Source: a virus. From it: a DNA stretch of 64,000 bases. The stretch spans positions 1-64,000 of IMG/VR virus record IMGVR_UViG_3300020052_000004; one strand, given 5' to 3'. The notes below the pieces were generated by a model. The model saw only the letters and a list, made by a program, of their open reading frames with translations. It ran no database searches and had not been told where the DNA came from. This document shows, in pieces, positions 36,384 through 44,205 of the stretch. The number at the start of each line of letters is the position of its first letter. Position 1 is the stretch's first letter. A program made the translations under genes and the position numbers.

Positions 36384-36581
36384 ATGGGACCAGTGAGTGG
36401 ATATTTCTCAGAACCAGGTACGTTAAACAGGACTAGCGAAGTCTTCGATAACATGGATGGTTCATATGTTGTTATGATGTATGAAGGAACTGATCTTCGC
36501 GAAGAGCGAATCATTGAAGGACATACATTGGATTATGCAGAAGACTGCGCAGAAAATTGGGTATTAGGAGTTATTAAATGA
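36384..36581 (+). CDS. Unknown 65-residue acidic protein
   Basis: Starts GPVSGYFSEPGTLNRTSEVF and has NMDGSYVVMMYEGTDLREERII, probably a small beta/alpha fold. It has its own promoter and AAAGGAG site, and overlaps the MazG-like gene by four bases. Not recognised. Confidence 0.55.
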   Translation: MGPVSGYFSEPGTLNRTSEVFDNMDGSYVVMMYEGTDLREERIIEGHTLDYAEDCAENWVLGVIK

Positions 36582-37000
36582 GTGTGAATTTGATTGAAGA
36601 TATGGCGCATATGCACGACCACTATGGAGTACATACTGCAATTGAGAAGTTAACTGCAGAACAGTTAAAAACGTTCCTTAAATTTCGTATTGACTTTTTG
36701 CAAGAAGAGTTGGATGAGATGAATAAGGCTTATAATGAGGGCGGTGAAAGTGCAGCTGATGATACAGTTGATGCTTTGATTGATTTGGCTGTGGTTGCAT
36801 TGGGTACACTTGATGCATTCCGAGTGAATGGTTATGAAGCATGGAACCGTGTTTATAAAGCAAATATGTCCAAAGTTGTTGGTATTAAAGAAAGTCGTCC
36901 TAATCCTCTAGGACTTCCAGACTTGATCAAGCCAGAAGGTTGGACTGCTCCGACTCATGTAGATAATGTTGGTTTATTGGAACAGGTATTTACAAAATGA
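36578..37000 (+). CDS. MazG-like nucleotide pyrophosphohydrolase
   Basis: A 140-residue all-alpha NTP pyrophosphatase. The metal-binding pattern is FLQEELDEM (ExxE, about 46-50) with DDTVDALIDLAVVALGTLDAF (ExxD-type second part, about 71-82), then NGYEAWNRVYKANMSKV, typical of phage MazG-like proteins. It would hydrolyse a (d)NTP to the monophosphate. Since the downstream operon encodes dCMP hydroxymethylase, it might supply dCMP from dCTP as T4 gp56 does; that is inference. Coupled by ATGA on both sides. Confidence 0.7.
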   Translation: MSVNLIEDMAHMHDHYGVHTAIEKLTAEQLKTFLKFRIDFLQEELDEMNKAYNEGGESAADDTVDALIDLAVVALGTLDAFRVNGYEAWNRVYKANMSKVVGIKESRPNPLGLPDLIKPEGWTAPTHVDNVGLLEQVFTK

Positions 37001-37968
37001 TTGGTTTCACGGTTTTCAAATCTATCTTTGATAACAAGACTGACGTAAGTGTCGACTTTGATAGCTTCGATAAGTTTGAAACTGCTTTATACCACTTGGC
37101 AACTAAGCCAGGTTATAAAGCACGGAAAGGCGAGTATACCCCGAAAGGGGTTACTCCTTCTCCGCTGATATCTCCTGCAGTTTACAAAGAAGGAACCACC
37201 CGCGCCAACGCTAATGTAATTAAGTGGGCAGGTTGGGCCGCGGTAGATGTCGACCAAGCAGTGTTTGAGGGAAATCTAAAAGACGAGTTGCAGAAACGTT
37301 ATGGTAACTGGCGTTATGTTTGTTATTCTACCGCCAGTAGTACGAATGAGCATCCTAAGTTTAGACTCGTCTTCCCTCTCTCCAGAGATATTCAGTCGAA
37401 TGAAATCCGTCACTTCTGGTTTGCACTCAATACAGAACTTGAGTCAATTGGAGATCTACAAACAAAAGATCTTAGTAGAATGTATTATGTTCCTGCTAAG
37501 TATCCTAATGCCAATAATTTCATTTTTAGTAATCCTGGCACTAATATTGAAGTAGATAGTCTTTTAGCAAAGCACGAGTATACGGAACGTACTGGAGATT
37601 CTTTCATGGATCGTCTACCAGAGTCTATGCAGAAAGAAGTGGTTGCATATCGCCAGAATAAACTTCGCGAGAGTTCACGAAGTTTCCATTGGACTTCATA
37701 CTCAGATTGCCCATTCATTAATCATCGTTTGATCGGTGATTATAAGGCAATTGCACGTACCGATGGTTCTGGTAGATACTCTATGATTTACAAGATCATG
37801 ACGTCGATTGCATGTAATGCGGTTCGTCAAGGTTATGCAATCACAGAGTCTGAAATCTCCCAATTGATCCTCCAGTTAGATCGTGAGACCAGTAATATAT
37901 ACCAAAAACGACCATTGACCACAGAAGCTTCCAGAGCCATAGAATACGCATACAAAACTGCAATGTAA
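36997..37968 (+). CDS. Putative archaeo-eukaryotic-type (PrimPol) primase
   Basis: A 323-residue protein. Residues about 70-175 have KWAGWAAVDVDQ (DxD, about 85-87), CYSTASSTNEHPKFRLVFPL (a Ser/His-Arg motif, about 110-128) and DLSRMYYVPAKYPN, the layout of AEP/PrimPol catalytic domains. The C-terminal third is helical (YSMIYKIMTSIACNAVRQGYA), like a PriCT-type domain. It is unlike T4 gp61, a DnaG-type primase, and no gp61 is seen in the window. Position after gp41 and MazG suggests a primase role. Moderately sure of fold, less of function. Confidence 0.55.
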   Translation: MIGFTVFKSIFDNKTDVSVDFDSFDKFETALYHLATKPGYKARKGEYTPKGVTPSPLISPAVYKEGTTRANANVIKWAGWAAVDVDQAVFEGNLKDELQKRYGNWRYVCYSTASSTNEHPKFRLVFPLSRDIQSNEIRHFWFALNTELESIGDLQTKDLSRMYYVPAKYPNANNFIFSNPGTNIEVDSLLAKHEYTERTGDSFMDRLPESMQKEVVAYRQNKLRESSRSFHWTSYSDCPFINHRLIGDYKAIARTDGSGRYSMIYKIMTSIACNAVRQGYAITESEISQLILQLDRETSNIYQKRPLTTEASRAIEYAYKTAM

Positions 37969-38012
37969 TACTTTAGTACTATATGTACAACAATTCGAAC
38001 TTATAGTATAAT
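37966..38012 (+). promoter_or_regulatory. Promoter module D
   Basis: TAATACTTTAGTACTATA, TGTACA (37984-37989), 17 bases, TATAAT (38007-38012). The next ATG (38019) falls at the expected transcription start. Confidence 0.75.
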
Positions 38013-38018
38013 ATACCT

Positions 38019-38282
38019 ATGATTGACCAAAACAAAGCTGAACAAATCCTCCAAGCACTATTCGACCATGAAGTTATGAGTGAACACGATTTAGAAAATT
38101 TATCGTTTCTATTATCGTCTTCAGAAGAAACTTTATTAGATTGGTATAGCAAAGTGGATGAAGAAGACTTACGCTATGCTAGCACTATTTTGAATATTGC
38201 CCATAACTTCTTTAGCGACAATGCCGTGGCGATCGATACTACACAAGCAAATCAGATTTTGAAAAAGTATATGTATGATTGA
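38019..38282 (+). CDS. Unknown 87-residue protein, possibly leaderless
   Basis: An acidic helical protein (QNKAEQILQALFDHEVMSEHD ... QANQILKKYMYD). Its ATG is seven bases after the -10 box of module D, so its mRNA may lack a 5' leader; no ribosome site is possible in that layout. It overlaps the next gene by eight bases and heads the operon that leads to the dCMP hydroxymethylase. Function unknown. Confidence 0.55.
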   Translation: MIDQNKAEQILQALFDHEVMSEHDLENLSFLLSSSEETLLDWYSKVDEEDLRYASTILNIAHNFFSDNAVAIDTTQANQILKKYMYD

Positions 38283-38829
38283 AATTGCGCAAAAGCTAAA
38301 AGACTCCGGAACAGTACGGATCCCCAAAGAAGAGATAGAAGACGATATAGCCTCAATGGCTGTGGCGATCTTTAGTCGTGGTGCAGATTCTAGAACGCAA
38401 GAAGAAGTCTTCCGAGACTGTAAACGTATTGCGATCGAGTTTGCTTTAGTAAAAGTTCTAGGCGGTGAACGTAACCCCAAAGAGTTTAACTTTAGAGACA
38501 AAGACTCGTATATTTGGGACGTTAAGGTTGACGGTAAGAAGTTTGAAGTAAAGCGACATAAAACCGGCGCTAAATACTTTACCTACTCTGGCAAGAAAAT
38601 CGGCACATACATCAAAAACTGTATGGACATTGATTATCTAGTCACGGCTTATATGGATGAATCGGATGATAACTATATTATCGACTTTGCCATGATTGTG
38701 GATTCGAAGAAGTTTGAATTCTATTTTCAGAAAAGTCAGTATAATAGTTCATACTATTACGATCATCGTATAGCGACCAAAACCGGCGATTGTGTAGCCT
38801 TTGGTCTAAGAGATGCAACAATTTATTAA
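38275..38829 (+). CDS. PD-(D/E)XK nuclease-like protein
   Basis: A 184-residue protein with the nuclease-type pattern WDVKVDGKKFEVKRHK: D82 and E91-V-K93 sit on the expected strands, and a helix with E45 or E55 precedes them. This suggests a metal-dependent endonuclease. In an operon for modified cytosine it might attack unmodified (host) DNA, but no target is visible. Overlaps the preceding gene. Alternative: an inactive relative with a binding role. Confidence 0.5.
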   Translation: MIEIAQKLKDSGTVRIPKEEIEDDIASMAVAIFSRGADSRTQEEVFRDCKRIAIEFALVKVLGGERNPKEFNFRDKDSYIWDVKVDGKKFEVKRHKTGAKYFTYSGKKIGTYIKNCMDIDYLVTAYMDESDDNYIIDFAMIVDSKKFEFYFQKSQYNSSYYYDHRIATKTGDCVAFGLRDATIY

Positions 38830-38838
38830 GAGGTGAAC

Positions 38839-39195
38839 ATGACACAATATACACGAGCATCAGCAAATATTCTTCTTGAGGCAGCAGAACTTCAAGAACG
38901 TAAAGGATTAGATTATAATAATCCCAATTCCTCAGTACAACAAGCAGACTATTATCCGCGTGGAGTGTGGTCTGTTATGGATATTATTAACGCTAAATAT
39001 CTTCGCATGGTATCTGTTCTAGAGACTATGGAACAAGGCGGGAAAGCTAACTTTGAATCTATTGAAGATTCTGCATTAGATTTGATTAATTATGCATCGT
39101 TCCTTGCAGCATATATGCGTGGGCAGATTCCAGGTCAAGATGTGTCAAAGAAAGATATATTTGGCCGCAAAGTGATTAAAGGAGAAAATAAATGA
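38839..39195 (+). CDS. Nucleotide-modification-associated (DUF1599/Nmad1-like) protein
   Basis: A 118-residue helical protein with RKGLDYNNPNSSVQQADYYP, GVWSVMDIINAKYLRMVSVL and ESIEDSALDLINYASFLAAYM. This follows the DUF1599 family pattern (K..RM..., E..ED...DLINY), found in phages near thymidylate-synthase-family genes. Here it is coupled by ATGA to the hydroxymethylase. It may bind or hydrolyse a nucleotide. ATG 38839 is chosen because AGAGGTG is its ribosome site. Confidence 0.55.
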   Translation: MTQYTRASANILLEAAELQERKGLDYNNPNSSVQQADYYPRGVWSVMDIINAKYLRMVSVLETMEQGGKANFESIEDSALDLINYASFLAAYMRGQIPGQDVSKKDIFGRKVIKGENK

Positions 39196-39869
39196 TTCGA
39201 GTAGAAGATATACGTACAGAATTTAATAATGCATTACTTGCAGAACAATTTACAGTAGATCGTAATACAGGAGTTCGAACGATTGAGTTGTTGAATGCAA
39301 CCTTTATTGCAGATGAAGATAAAATTTTTGGTACAGTCAATCAAGAATACGTAGAAAAAGAACTGAGCTGGTATCGTTCAATGTCTCTCAATGTTAATGA
39401 CATTGAAGGCGGACCACCTGCCGTATGGGCGCAAGTTGCAGATCCAGACGGATTTATTAATTCTAACTATGGATGGTGTATTTACTCTGAAGAGAATGGT
39501 TATCAGTTTAAACATGTGTTAGAAGAATTAGCACGTGATCCCAATTCTCGACGTGCTAATATGATCTATACTCGTCCTTCAATGCATACTGATTATAATA
39601 AGAACGGTATGTCCGATTTCATGTGCACAAATAACGTACAATATGTTCTTCGGAATGGCCAACTGCATGCGATGGTGTATATGCGCAGTAACGATGCAAT
39701 TTACGGTTATAAGAATGACTACGCATGGCAAAAGTTTGTACAAGCCCAATTGTTAATCGGACTTAATGCACGAACTTCGTCATCATATGGTTTAGGCCGT
39801 ATTATGTGGAATGCTGGTTCTCTGCACATATATGATCGCCACTGGCACTTGATTAAAAAAGAAGCATGA
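39192..39869 (+). CDS. 42: dCMP hydroxymethylase, T4 gp42-type
   Basis: A 225-residue thymidylate-synthase-fold enzyme making 5-hydroxymethyl-dCMP. Similarity to T4 gp42 (246 residues) is strong over INSNYGWCIYSEENGY, DPNSRRANMIYTRPSM, GMSDFMCTNNVQY and MRSNDAIYGYKNDYAWQKF. The catalytic cysteine is C145 (T4 C148). D176 (T4 D179) replaces the asparagine that gives thymidylate synthases their dUMP preference, so cytosine is the expected base. The C-terminal extension of T4 is missing. It is coupled by ATGA on both sides. The phage probably carries a modified cytosine. Confidence 0.93.
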   Translation: MIRVEDIRTEFNNALLAEQFTVDRNTGVRTIELLNATFIADEDKIFGTVNQEYVEKELSWYRSMSLNVNDIEGGPPAVWAQVADPDGFINSNYGWCIYSEENGYQFKHVLEELARDPNSRRANMIYTRPSMHTDYNKNGMSDFMCTNNVQYVLRNGQLHAMVYMRSNDAIYGYKNDYAWQKFVQAQLLIGLNARTSSSYGLGRIMWNAGSLHIYDRHWHLIKKEA

Positions 39870-40321
39870 ATTCGAAACGACAAACAAATAAATGGAATAA
39901 CAGATATATTTCATTAGCCAAGGAAATTTCTGCTTGGAGTAAAGATCCAAGCAGAAAGATTGGTGCAGTTGCAATTGGAGAAAAGGGACAAGTTTTGTCT
40001 CAGGGATATAACGGATTTCCCCGTGGAATATTTGATTATGAATCTCGGTACTCGAACAGAGAGACTAAATATCAATACGTAGTTCACGCTGAAATGAATT
40101 GCATTTATAATGCAACTTATAACGGAGTATCTTTGGCAGACTCTTCTCTTTTTGTGTGGGGATTGCCTGCATGTTCTGAGTGTGCTAAAGGGATCATTCA
40201 AGTAGGTATTAAGAAAGTTTACTGGTCTACTGATGAAGTGATTCCTGATATATGGGAAAAATCGTTAAAGCTTTCTGAAAATATGTTTAAAGAATCAGGC
40301 GTAGATATTATTAAGTTATGA
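39866..40321 (+). CDS. cd: dCMP deaminase
   Basis: A 151-residue zinc cytidine-deaminase-fold enzyme converting dCMP to dUMP. Zinc and proton-transfer residues lie in VVHAEMNCIYNA (HAE) and LPACSECAKGII (CxxC). DPSRKIGAVAI and QGYNGFPRGI are also typical. It feeds ThyX (54870) with dUMP while competing with gp42 for dCMP, so placing both in one operon balances thymine and hydroxymethylcytosine. Overlaps neighbours by four bases. Confidence 0.93.
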   Translation: MNSKRQTNKWNNRYISLAKEISAWSKDPSRKIGAVAIGEKGQVLSQGYNGFPRGIFDYESRYSNRETKYQYVVHAEMNCIYNATYNGVSLADSSLFVWGLPACSECAKGIIQVGIKKVYWSTDEVIPDIWEKSLKLSENMFKESGVDIIKL

Positions 40322-41469
40322 ACATTGAACCAACCAAACATTATGAAGAGTATCTGCGATACTTTGAGTTAGCCACTAAACAACAAGAACTTTGTAACTT
40401 TGGTTGGTTACCTCATAGTGAGTCGAACATGGGTGATAGCCTAATGGAAAACGTTGAGCTATACGATGTGGTAGAACGTAAGTACGCAGGATTCTCTCAG
40501 ATCATCAACGATTGCTTTTACGGTTGGACTGAAGAACACCCATACTGGAAAAAGATGGAAAGTGGCAATGCCACCATCCAACGTCAAATTGTTGCTAAAG
40601 ACTGGACTGGAAAACATTCAGACTTTAAATTGGCGGAATGGCTCTATCTATTCATTTTACATCGTGTAACTGGTTCTGCAATTAACTACGCAACTAAACC
40701 ATCAGGCTATCATAATACTATTATTTTCCATCTTCATGAATGTCGGACCATTGAAGATATGACGAGGATCGTGAGGATCTATCACAAGCCTTTCTATACT
40801 TCGGTTGGATACCAGTTTCCGGCATTCCCTAAACCACCAGAAGGTGGTGATTACAAACGAGGCGGTGATTACTACCTCTGTGAATATGCTCCACGACTTG
40901 CACGTGAAATGGCTGAATGGTTGGAAAAAGGTGGTAAGCGAGATCTACGTGAACTAGGTGGGTTTATGCTCGATTGGAATAAGAAGAATGGTTTGCGCCA
41001 ATACTTCTTTCAGTACGCAGCAACAGTTGCAGATATTGCCGATTGGTTCCCTCAGTATGTAAATCGCGACTCTATGTTCTACTACGGAACCAATGCTCGT
41101 GAATGTATTTCTTATTTGGCAACTCCAACCAAGAAGATGAATCAGGACCAATTCCTTGATGAGGTCATGCAACAAATCTACTTGGATACAGGATCGTTTC
41201 CATATAATGCAGAAGACGTGTGTTGTGATTACATCCGATGGGTAGAGAACTATATTCGACCTGGAGCAGCGTATAACCATTTGGACTTTGATAAGGTGTG
41301 GTCTTCATGCAAGATTAAAGATCATCCATTTGGTAGACAAGAGGCTATGTTACAATTAGGATTGGTAGATACATTCAATGGTATCACTAAACACCCATCC
41401 GATGATTATATTATTAAGAAGGCCGGTTTAACGGTAGAAGAATACAAAGCAAAATGTCAAAGCCTGTAA
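40318..41469 (+). CDS. Possible DNA base hypermodification protein (aGPT-Pplase-like)
   Basis: A 383-residue helical protein. Segments such as WLYLFILHRVTGSAINY, YHKPFYTSVGYQFPAFPKP, GGDYYLCEYAPRLA, FFQYAATVADIADWFPQYV and RDSMFYYGTNARECI recall the family annotated as alpha-glutamyl/putrescinyl-thymine pyrophosphorylase (putative base hypermodification). Those proteins act on a hydroxymethylated base in phage DNA. Here the partner is a hydroxymethylcytosine synthase. It is coupled by ATGA to dCMP deaminase and by overlap to the next gene. The family match is from memory and tentative. Confidence 0.45.
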   Translation: MNIEPTKHYEEYLRYFELATKQQELCNFGWLPHSESNMGDSLMENVELYDVVERKYAGFSQIINDCFYGWTEEHPYWKKMESGNATIQRQIVAKDWTGKHSDFKLAEWLYLFILHRVTGSAINYATKPSGYHNTIIFHLHECRTIEDMTRIVRIYHKPFYTSVGYQFPAFPKPPEGGDYKRGGDYYLCEYAPRLAREMAEWLEKGGKRDLRELGGFMLDWNKKNGLRQYFFQYAATVADIADWFPQYVNRDSMFYYGTNARECISYLATPTKKMNQDQFLDEVMQQIYLDTGSFPYNAEDVCCDYIRWVENYIRPGAAYNHLDFDKVWSSCKIKDHPFGRQEAMLQLGLVDTFNGITKHPSDDYIIKKAGLTVEEYKAKCQSL

Positions 41470-42449
41470 TTACAAATCCTATTAGCAATATTCCCAAGCT
41501 TGCAAACTCCCACGTACGGGGATGGTCACAGGTGTGGGCGGAACAGCTTAACGCTGAAGTGGATCATAAGTGTTCCACCAACATACTTAACGGATCGTTA
41601 GTGTACATCGAGCATGGTGTAAACTTTGGTGGAACACTTAATCTATTTGGCGGTGCGGGCCAAGATATTTTTGAGAAAATCGATCGTGTTATGCAATGTA
41701 AGAATGTTGTATCACTAGATTTCGACATGCCCAATTGGGGTGAACAACTGCGTAAACGTATCGGAAATGCAACTACATATGATGGAATCACTGAAAAGTG
41801 GTGTGATATGCTATCTAGTTGGTGTACATCAAACGTACCATCTCTAAAGCAAGAAAATATCGATTGGCTCAATGACATTTCGGTGGGTGACAGTCATACT
41901 CCTGCTTTTTCTCAGGCAAATGATGTGGTGTTACGTACTAACGGCAAAACATTGTTTGGTACATTAAAGAACGGTCTTAAGAATGAATTCCGTGGAATGA
42001 CACCTAAAGGACAGATCACATTTAGTCTTGGTTCCATTGATATCCGTCATCACTTGCTTCGTCATGACGATAATCTAGATAATATGATATCAGAGTATGT
42101 TGCACAAGGCCAGGAACTTGAGCGTGAATATGGGGTGGATGTATATTACGGAGCACCAGTGCCTGTCGAATATGAGGATAGGAAGCTTCCTAAGTCTGGA
42201 TATTTCAAAGGTACTCCATTTTTTGGATCACGTGATGATCGGATCCGACTTACGCTTAGGTTTATTGAACTACTAAATACACATAGTGGAAACAAGGTTA
42301 TAATGCCCCCAGAGGAGTGGTACCATATGGATGGTGAGAAGTATGCCAAGATGCATATGGAAGCCAGTTCTAGTGTTCATATATCGCCAGAGTATTATAG
42401 GCGATATAATTGGGGCAAACAAGACTCCCTCGAGGGGTTTTTCAATTAA
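41454..42449 (+). CDS. SGNH-hydrolase-like protein of the modification operon
   Basis: A 331-residue protein. SVGDSHTPAFS (about 141-151) fits block I (GDS) of SGNH/GDSL hydrolases, FSLGSIDIRHHLL (about 190-202) block III, and SSSVHISPEYY (about 311) the C-terminal histidine. These enzymes handle acyl or ester groups. It is the last gene of the operon, ends before a terminator, and overlaps the preceding gene by 16 bases, so a role in adding or removing a group on the modified base or its precursor is possible. Confidence 0.45.
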   Translation: MSKPVITNPISNIPKLANSHVRGWSQVWAEQLNAEVDHKCSTNILNGSLVYIEHGVNFGGTLNLFGGAGQDIFEKIDRVMQCKNVVSLDFDMPNWGEQLRKRIGNATTYDGITEKWCDMLSSWCTSNVPSLKQENIDWLNDISVGDSHTPAFSQANDVVLRTNGKTLFGTLKNGLKNEFRGMTPKGQITFSLGSIDIRHHLLRHDDNLDNMISEYVAQGQELEREYGVDVYYGAPVPVEYEDRKLPKSGYFKGTPFFGSRDDRIRLTLRFIELLNTHSGNKVIMPPEEWYHMDGEKYAKMHMEASSSVHISPEYYRRYNWGKQDSLEGFFN

Positions 42450-42510: not shown

Positions 42511-43254
42511 ATGGCCGCTCAACAAGGCTTCCAATACGAAATAAATGCAAGTAATATGCTTAAACCAATGGGCTTCGTGCCTAAATCGTTTAAGCCTGCA
42601 GGCGCTGGTCATGACCAGCCTGACTTAATGCTCTTGCATAAAAAGAAAGAAGCCGGGTGTGAGCTTAAGATTACTGCTGCATCAGCAGGTTCATTGGTCA
42701 TAAAATACGATTCTAAAGATAAGAGAAACCCTTGGAAGTTCGGTGATATTAAAGCCGACGAGGATGAGAAAAGGTTCATTGCTGATCTTGCTAAAGAGGT
42801 TAAGTTGTTTGACCTTATCAAAAAGCAATGGAAAGAAAAACCGTATAAAAGAGATAAAGACGTTGAATGGAATGCAACTGCTGGTAAGATGACTCCTAAA
42901 CAAAGATATGAAAGAGATCGTGATACCTTTGCCGATATCCGTGGTGAAATTCCTGCAACGAAAATAGAGCAGTATTATAATCGTAAAGATACACACTATG
43001 TCAATGTTGGCACGCATGGTTTCTATTTAATGGGAAAGGCAAACCCTCTGAAATTAAAAGGTGTTCCTACATTCGGTGCTTCTGCAAAGGCTACGTATAG
43101 AGCCCGTGTTCAATACAAGGGCTCTGGAAATTATCAGTTTACGTTTGAAATGCAATTTAGTATGAAATCTAAATCTCCATACAACATTGCTCCAGTTGAT
43201 GGAAAGAGCGTTACTATTTTAAAAGATAAATTAAACCTGGGATGTTTTGTATAA
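42511..43254 (+). CDS. PD-(D/E)XK nuclease-like late protein
   Basis: A 247-residue basic protein. GHDQPDLML (P37-D38) and CELKIT (E51-L-K53) form a clear PD...ExK motif, as in restriction- and resolvase-type nucleases. The rest has many lysines and a beta-rich C-terminus. It is expressed late and directly precedes another nuclease-like gene with a capsid-targeting leader. Its role could be in DNA packaging, DNA ejection or host DNA attack; I cannot choose. Confidence 0.55.
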   Translation: MAAQQGFQYEINASNMLKPMGFVPKSFKPAGAGHDQPDLMLLHKKKEAGCELKITAASAGSLVIKYDSKDKRNPWKFGDIKADEDEKRFIADLAKEVKLFDLIKKQWKEKPYKRDKDVEWNATAGKMTPKQRYERDRDTFADIRGEIPATKIEQYYNRKDTHYVNVGTHGFYLMGKANPLKLKGVPTFGASAKATYRARVQYKGSGNYQFTFEMQFSMKSKSPYNIAPVDGKSVTILKDKLNLGCFV

Positions 43255-44205
43255 ATGAAAAACTTTATAGACTTTTTAACTGAAGCCTCTGGTAGTTCTT
43301 CTAATGAACACTTTGGCGTTGCATATGAAACTGCAACAGCGATGCATTTGCATCATATGACTGGTTCTAAGACTAACAACGATCCAGAACATAAAAAACG
43401 AATGCAAGAGATTGGATCGAAGGGTAAAGCTGCTTTTGACAAGCTTCCTGATCATCTAAAGAGTCGTGCTTTGCAATCAGCTAAAGCATCCGCCGAGTCT
43501 TATATTGAAAGTCTTAAAAAGAATCACAAGATTAATCCTGCTGATATTCATGAAGTTCATCATACTTCAAAGGGAATCGATCATTTGATTAATGCTAAAG
43601 CTGATCGTATTCAAAACCCGCATGACGTTGTTGTTAAGACTAAAGATGGAAAACTACATGGAGCGTCTTTAAAGGCAACGCAAGGTACTCTAAGTAATAA
43701 CGGTATCGGTACTTTCGACAGTCAGAATAAAGGTCATATTAAAACTGAGGTTGGCTCTATATGGGCAAAAGGTAAAAAGAAAGCCGGCTTAGAAGGCAAG
43801 AGCGGAGCAGAAATTAAAGCCGTACGTAATGATCCTAAAGTAAAAGCTGCAAATAAAGAAACACAGGCAGAGGCTGCAGCACACCATAGTAAACAGTTCA
43901 ACAAGGCTTCTATTGAAGATCAACGTAAGCATCTACGTTATATTATGAAATCTGAAAAACCTGCAGTACCATATGACTACGTCAATGGAGAAAAGAACAA
44001 GTCAGTTCCTAGCCATCAACTTGATCACGCTCAAGCTATTGAGAAGTCTAAGAAGTTTGAAATGCGTCATACCGCCGGAAGTAATCTAGTTAAGATCCAC
44101 GACGACGAAGGTAGACACGTGGCAACAGTTGAACACAGACCGACTCATGGTGCATTCTCTGGAGTACAAGTTAATACTAAAATTGGTACTATGAAGGCAA
44201 GTTAA
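43255..44205 (+). CDS. Nuclease-like protein with capsid-targeting leader
   Basis: A 316-residue protein starting MKNFIDFLTEASG; LTE-A is a fitting gp21 cleavage site, so it is probably packaged in the head and ejected with DNA. NPHDVVVKTKDGKLHGASLK contains D124 and S-L-K140, a known variant of the PD-(D/E)XK core. The C-terminal half is rich in His, Lys and Asn. It starts immediately after the stop of the upstream nuclease-like gene (TAAATG). Confidence 0.5.
   Translation: MKNFIDFLTEASGSSSNEHFGVAYETATAMHLHHMTGSKTNNDPEHKKRMQEIGSKGKAAFDKLPDHLKSRALQSAKASAESYIESLKKNHKINPADIHEVHHTSKGIDHLINAKADRIQNPHDVVVKTKDGKLHGASLKATQGTLSNNGIGTFDSQNKGHIKTEVGSIWAKGKKKAGLEGKSGAEIKAVRNDPKVKAANKETQAEAAAHHSKQFNKASIEDQRKHLRYIMKSEKPAVPYDYVNGEKNKSVPSHQLDHAQAIEKSKKFEMRHTAGSNLVKIHDDEGRHVATVEHRPTHGAFSGVQVNTKIGTMKAS

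Follow-up and report, generated by a model that had tools for sequence, protein, structure and literature searches.

In phage T4, gp42 makes 5-hydroxymethyl-dCMP, gp56 acts as a dCTPase/dUTPase and the nuclease DenB attacks cytosine-containing DNA. The parts of the M6-type pathway are a 5-hydroxymethyldeoxyuridine (5-hmdU) DNA kinase, an amino acid:DNA transferase, a pyridoxal phosphate (PLP) enzyme and a radical SAM protein. To our knowledge, amino-acid-derived hypermodification of bases is known only on thymine, and the cytosine of phages with gp42-type enzymes carries sugars or a carbamoyl group. An O-carbamoyltransferase has been shown to act on 5-hydroxymethylcytosine (hmC), and a trio of gp42 (thymidylate-synthase family), MazG (PRA-PH) and dCMP deaminase genes has been tied experimentally to modified-cytosine phage contigs, which are marked by an aspartate at the pyrimidine-selecting position (PMC8670742). 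Here we analyse a gene run at positions 36578-42449 of a 64,000-nucleotide stretch of DNA from an uncultured T4-like bacterial virus (the window), part of the 136,533-base IMG/VR virus record IMGVR_UViG_3300020052_000004 (G000).

We propose that the run encodes a two-stage cytosine hypermodification system, in which hmC made by gp42 would be derivatised by a pathway like that of thymidine hypermodification, probably with an amino acid. This reading, which leans on analogy with M6-type phages, has in our judgement a probability of about 0.5. Its parts differ in strength: from the gene content, hmC is very probably present in the virion DNA; further derivatisation by the cassette is reasonably likely; and the odds that the added group derives from an amino acid are close to even. 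The genes are as follows.

36578..37000, + strand: MazG-like (PRA-PH) nucleotide pyrophosphohydrolase, candidate dCTP/dCDP-removing enzyme (PF01503, 1.6e-5; phrog_671, 6e-19)
38275..38829, + strand: DenB-like nuclease, T4 endonuclease IV family (phrog_1360, 7.5e-9)
38833..39195, + strand: Nmad1/DUF1599-like, MazG-superfamily-like small protein (PF07659, E 0.021, below the cut-off; phrog_18404 'hydrolase', 4.5e-16)
39192..39869, + strand: gp42 dCMP hydroxymethylase (PF00303, E 6e-15; phrog_160, 1e-48)
39866..40321, + strand: dCMP deaminase (PF00383, 1.1e-16; phrog_174, 1e-39)
40318..41469, + strand: P6, helical protein, candidate DNA-base transferase (predicted fold; profile comparison)
41454..42449, + strand: P7, with a BGT-like (beta-glucosyltransferase) N-terminal domain and a C-terminal SGNH-fold domain (predicted fold; profile comparison)

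Gene order in this region of the window is T4-like (relatives of gp43, uvsX, gp41 and gp42), and every open reading frame (ORF) listed in an initial annotation was found at its coordinates. The four-base overlaps reported there are present at the Nmad1/gp42, gp42/deaminase and deaminase/P6 junctions; P6 and P7 overlap by 16 bp instead, and a 3-bp gap separates the DenB-like and Nmad1-like genes.

Comparison with described systems

The locus resembles T4, with hmC and glucosyl-hmC, and RB69, with arabinosyl-hmC, in its gp42, dCMP deaminase, DenB-like nuclease and dCTP-removing function. It differs from both in having a MazG-like gene in the place of gp56 and no homologue of the alpha- or beta-glucosyltransferase or of RB69 ORF003c. 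The beta-glucosyltransferase profile PF09198, which matches the T4 control at E 1e-99, found nothing in the 136.5-kb record, T4 alpha-glucosyltransferase and RB69 ORF003c gave no tblastn match to the record and the T4 beta enzyme gave only chance matches (E of at least 0.46), in agreement with the earlier statement that no glucosyltransferase is present. A sub-threshold BGT signal in a relative (G003) was considered as a separate glucosyltransferase and rejected, the signal being P7 itself.

With the thymidine hypermodification systems of M6, ViI and phiW-14, the genome shares a transferase-superfamily fold and a PLP enzyme of the PHROG family of M6 gp52. The fold is that of P6 and, in relatives, of Px, a further protein that usually lies beside P6 and has profile similarity to it. 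Unlike those phages, it would start from gp42-made hmC instead of hydroxymethyluracil (hmU), it has no DNA kinase and no match to an M6-type radical SAM protein in the record, and P7 is extra. In the 5-carbamoyloxymethylcytosine system (MetaGPA, PMC8670742), the same gp42/PRA-PH/dCMP deaminase neighbourhood precedes a second-stage gene, that of the carbamoyltransferase acting on hmC; the candidate second-stage genes here are P6, P7 and the PLP enzyme, and no cassette protein matches a carbamoyltransferase family. Aeromonas phages 44RR2.8t and 25 are T4-like phages in which a P7 homologue accompanies gp42, but they lack P6 and the PLP enzyme, P7 is fused in 44RR2.8t, and in phage 25 it lies near a UDP-galactopyranose mutase. 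The literature searched, most subscription papers excepted, has hmC carrying sugars or a carbamoyl group and thymine carrying amino-acid-derived groups, and does not describe the present combination.

Genes for hydroxymethylcytosine

On sequence grounds, the gene at 39192-39869 encodes a genuine dCMP hydroxymethylase of the gp42 type. Its homology to T4 deoxycytidylate hydroxymethylase structures is full-length (E about 1e-79; 9e-80 to 1b49), it is 55% identical to T4 gp42 and up to 59% identical to other T4-like gp42 proteins, and C145 (nucleophile) and D176 (position that selects dCMP), the residues singled out in the initial annotation, align with T4 Cys148 and Asp179. It is the sole thymidylate-synthase-family gene in the whole record, in which no dUMP-type hydroxymethylase that could supply hmU was seen. 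The neighbouring gene is a dCMP deaminase, as previously called, by its Pfam and PHROG matches. The nuclease-like gene noted upstream proves to be DenB-like by its PHROG match, and homologues lie beside gp42 in some relatives; given the substrate of T4 DenB, its presence fits the replacement of cytosine in the virion. The Nmad1-like label is a weak match by Pfam, and the gene adjoins gp42 in many relatives.

A homologue of T4 gp56 was searched for in the whole record and not found. Across nine cassette relatives, MazG-like and gp56-like genes alternate perfectly: six genomes have the MazG-like gene and gp42 without gp56, and three have a gp56-like gene without a MazG-like gene or detectable gp42. 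This is the pattern expected if the MazG-like enzyme replaces gp56, as had been suggested; on this comparison of gene content, its role as dCTPase stays a candidate one. A second phage group (L229, L233 and L259) has P7-P6-Px-PLP, no detectable gp42 and, immediately after the cassette, a gene like T4 gp56; L229 and L259 also have a LOG-family gene.

In the first stage, the MazG-like enzyme and dCMP deaminase would manage the dCTP/dCMP pool, gp42 would turn dCMP into 5-hydroxymethyl-dCMP for incorporation into phage DNA instead of cytosine, and the DenB-like nuclease would destroy unmodified DNA.

P6, P7 and a PLP enzyme

As a single sequence, P6 matched no family with a function in Pfam, PHROGs or NCBIfam, and its 71 homologues likewise match no annotated family. 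With these homologues as input, AlphaFold2 gave a model with a confidence (predicted local distance difference test, pLDDT) of 93.6. In a Foldseek search of BFVD, the closest named match is a 68%-identical 'amino acid:DNA transferase domain-containing' protein. Other matches are A0A6J5LCY1 (ADDT domain; distant, E 1.2e-4, probability 1.00), the phiW-14 5-hmdU DNA kinase helical domain protein C9DG43 (0.97) and a 'Pplase1' protein (0.97), together with two unnamed uncultured-phage proteins and one unnamed protein at 0.96. The named, non-paralogous matches at a probability of at least 0.96 are superfamily proteins without exception, and the TM-scores of the distant matches are low (0.35-0.43). 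Neither profile nor fold searches gave a significant match in the PDB.

Profile comparison gives a weaker signal. P6 aligns with Px at E 3e-4 (hhalign) and with HMUDK_hel at a score of 22.9 over 154 columns, compared with 25.7 over 108 columns for the known pair AADT-HMUDK_hel; unrelated profile pairs score mostly below 21 over short stretches, so that the P6/Px/HMUDK_hel signal stands above most of them, weakly. BLAST among P6, Px, M6 AADT and HMUDK_hel found nothing significant, the links coming from profiles and folds only. The predicted fold supports P6 as a distant relative in or near the aGPT-Pplase/amino acid:DNA transferase/HMUDK-helical superfamily. The initial annotation had likened P6 to the aGPT-Pplase family, and this survives as a distant kinship by predicted fold, not as a match to Pfam ADDT or HMUDK_hel. 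A search of 50,697 named phage records turned up no homologue of P6; p227nc of phage 25 was compared as a possible relative of P6 or Px and rejected.

P7 belongs to phrog_13881, a conserved protein also present in well-known Aeromonas phages; Pfam, PHROG and NCBIfam gave no family indicating function, and PDB sequences gave nothing useful. Its AlphaFold2 model (pLDDT 93.6) has only SGNH/GDSL proteins as top PDB matches in Foldseek (best E 1.7e-4, probability 1.00). The SGNH fold occupies the C-terminal half, with the motifs G145-D-S147-H ... G193-S-I-D196-I-R-H-H ... H309. Block I (G145-D-S147-H) is invariant in 77 homologues and the block V histidine H309 nearly so, and the patch R198-H-H/R203 is also invariant. 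The block III asparagine and the block V aspartate (DxxH) are absent, with I195 in the place of GxND and S306 in that of the aspartate. The proposed SGNH likeness therefore holds for the predicted fold, the serine motif and the histidine and fails for these two canonical residues, so 'SGNH hydrolase' is too specific a name; judging from the missing residues, P7 may catalyse something other than ordinary ester hydrolysis.

The first quarter of P7 weakly resembles the start of T4 beta-glucosyltransferase. Aligned by hhalign, residues 1-77 of the T4 enzyme and the P7 profile give E 1.7e-4, better than control pairs, and 9 of the 77 members match the BGT profile PF09198 (best 0.0024); 4 of 77 match Lipase_GDSL. 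Because GT-B enzymes generally bind the acceptor with their N-terminal domain, this BGT-like part suggests, by analogy, that P7 may have kept a hydroxymethylcytosine-binding domain and exchanged the sugar-donor domain for the SGNH domain.

P7 homologues in named phages are ORF233c of 44RR2.8t (31% identity) and ORF225c of Aeromonas phage 25 (23%), both phages carrying gp42. ORF233c (L002:8998-11385) is a fusion of the P7 homologue with a C-terminal region that weakly matches HMUDK_hel (E 0.0036 and 2.7e-4), which suggests that P7 takes the activating role. ORF233c also adjoins a gene annotated as a sugar-type SSF symporter. Directly upstream of the phage 25 homologue (L003:6773-8954) are the UDP-galactopyranose mutase (PF03275, 5e-54) and a 358-residue protein with a GT-B-like look, a pair that could point to galactofuranose chemistry. 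In one relative, a C5-cytosine DNA methylase (PF00145, 5e-18; L025:10129-11325) immediately follows P7.

Outside the window, at 69728-70699 of the same record, is a fold-type-II PLP enzyme that the initial annotation had not included. It matches phrog_7093 at 3.4e-55, a family that M6 gp52 matches at 2.2e-159, and aligns with the M6 gp52 family at E 5.6e-11 over 218 columns in a profile-profile comparison. The active-site K65 and the phosphate loop S195-x-G197 are invariant and common to M6 gp52; M6 gp51, gp54 and gp55 are ADDT, HMUDK and HMUDK_hel proteins. Beyond the PLP gene lie a cytochrome c-like ORF and then, 0.3 kb past the PLP gene, serine hydroxymethyltransferase (glyA, 71011-72156), which could supply methylene-tetrahydrofolate for gp42 as well as serine/glycine. 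In Erythrobacter and Microcystis phages (KY006853.1, PV416405.1 and PP438422.1), relatives of the PLP enzyme fall under genes annotated 'DNA modification methylase' or 'DNA methyltransferase'.

We infer the chemical steps of the second stage throughout. After replication, P7 and P6 would derivatise the 5-hydroxymethyl group of cytosine within DNA. P7 would recognise hmC through its BGT-like domain, and its SGNH domain would activate hmC or trim the product, so that P7 would stand where M6 uses the 5-hmdU DNA kinase. On the model of M6, an amino acid (most simply glycine or serine) would be attached by P6 and then decarboxylated or rearranged by the PLP enzyme. The most specific version would be a kinase-free route to an amino-acid-derived hypermodified cytosine: P7 would activate hmC by a new mechanism, the amino acid would be added by P6 (together with Px in relatives), and the PLP enzyme would finish the side chain. 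This version is tentative, and we hold it to be less probable than its negation.

Linkage of the cassette in relatives

Both P6 and P7 are real genes: full-length homologues occur in many contigs and non-synonymous change (dN) is low relative to synonymous change (dS): five of six pairwise comparisons have saturated synonymous sites with dN of 0.12-0.31, and dN/dS is 0.15 in the sixth. Among loci with enough flanking sequence, similar contigs being counted separately, those anchored on P7 contain P6 in 32/32 cases, gp42 in 28/32 and the PLP enzyme in 27/32; those anchored on P6 contain P7 (25/26), the PLP enzyme (24/26) and gp42 (22/26). The search for the same gene pair near gp42 in other phages, suggested at the outset, thus finds it in most loci. 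P6 and the PLP enzyme are both present in each of the nine near-full cassette genomes; M6 also has the PLP enzyme, and T4, 44RR2.8t and phage 25 lack both.

Some neighbours vary. Many relatives have a small UDG-superfamily protein (PF03167, 1.8e-6; L017:5607-6020 and equivalents) between the deaminase and P6, absent from the window genome. In L034 (1702-3646 and 10949-12350) and L037 (3253-5244), nucleotide-sugar-type genes stand between gp42 and adjacent genes and also downstream; they are phosphomannomutase-like, of the UDP-glucose dehydrogenase and DAHP/KDO8P synthase families and CMP-KDO synthetase-like. After P7 in the window (42511-44205) are two ORFs of 247 (phrog_26930) and 316 (no family) amino acids that were not seen beside P7 in most relatives.

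Alternative explanations

Several observations weigh against two-stage hypermodification with an amino acid. Activation is the largest gap: the 5-hmdU DNA kinase family PF18748 was found neither in the record nor in the searched relatives (M6 control, 1e-19), and no P-loop DNA kinase was found by motif or by family search, so the genome either lacks the activation known from M6 or achieves it differently. None of the 71 P6 homologues reaches Pfam ADDT or HMUDK_hel, and P6 is therefore not filed as ADDT. Px was not found in the window genome, the record possibly being incomplete, and the PLP gene lies 27 kb from the cassette. In three of the near-full-length cassette genomes gp42 could not be detected, and the cassette is thus not strictly tied to it. 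Finally, the position of the phage 25 P7 homologue by UDP-galactopyranose mutase fits sugar chemistry.

That last point belongs to the main rival, in which P7 is a diverged glycosyl- or group-transferase, hmC is glycosylated or its sugar is acylated or de-acylated, and P6 and the PLP enzyme are secondary or unrelated. The match of the P7 N-terminal part to T4 BGT favours it, as do the sugar-type symporter beside the 44RR2.8t homologue, the nucleotide-sugar genes between gp42 and deaminase in some relatives and the general knowledge that SGNH proteins commonly act on sugar acyl groups. We nevertheless consider it unlikely: the BGT-like part ends before the UDP-sugar-binding half, which SGNH replaces, the cassette of the window genome has no nucleotide-sugar gene, and the tight linkage of P6 and the M6-type PLP enzyme would be left unexplained. 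Somewhat less probable again is a virion with hmC only, P6 and P7 serving, for example, nucleotide metabolism or host takeover. In its favour, neither protein has a homologue of tested function, and no solved structure matches P6 significantly; the predicted fold of P6, however, matches DNA-base hypermodification proteins specifically, and gp42 and the M6-type PLP enzyme are constant company.

The second-stage genes might instead act on thymine or hydroxymethyluracil and leave the gp42 product as plain hmC. The characterised ADDT, HMUDK and M6-type PLP enzymes all act on 5-hmdU (PMC6449724 in part; the rest is general knowledge), and the gp42-less cassette genomes could be read in the same way. 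Against this, the record's only thymidylate-synthase-family gene is dCMP-type, with no dUMP-type hydroxymethylase seen; most loci have gp42 beside the cassette; and the genomes without detectable gp42 have, immediately after the cassette, a gene of the gp56 type. We hold this to be the least probable of the alternatives and retain two-stage cytosine hypermodification as the preferred reading.

Implications

Because no P6 homologue turned up in the named phage records searched, such chemistry has probably been overlooked, its carriers being uncultured. If the proposal is correct, the modified cytosine would be a new class of DNA base, formed by kinase-free activation of hydroxymethylcytosine, and P7 (phrog_13881), a conserved protein of well-known Aeromonas phages, would gain a role. 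The DNA of these phages would then likely resist many restriction and Cas nucleases.

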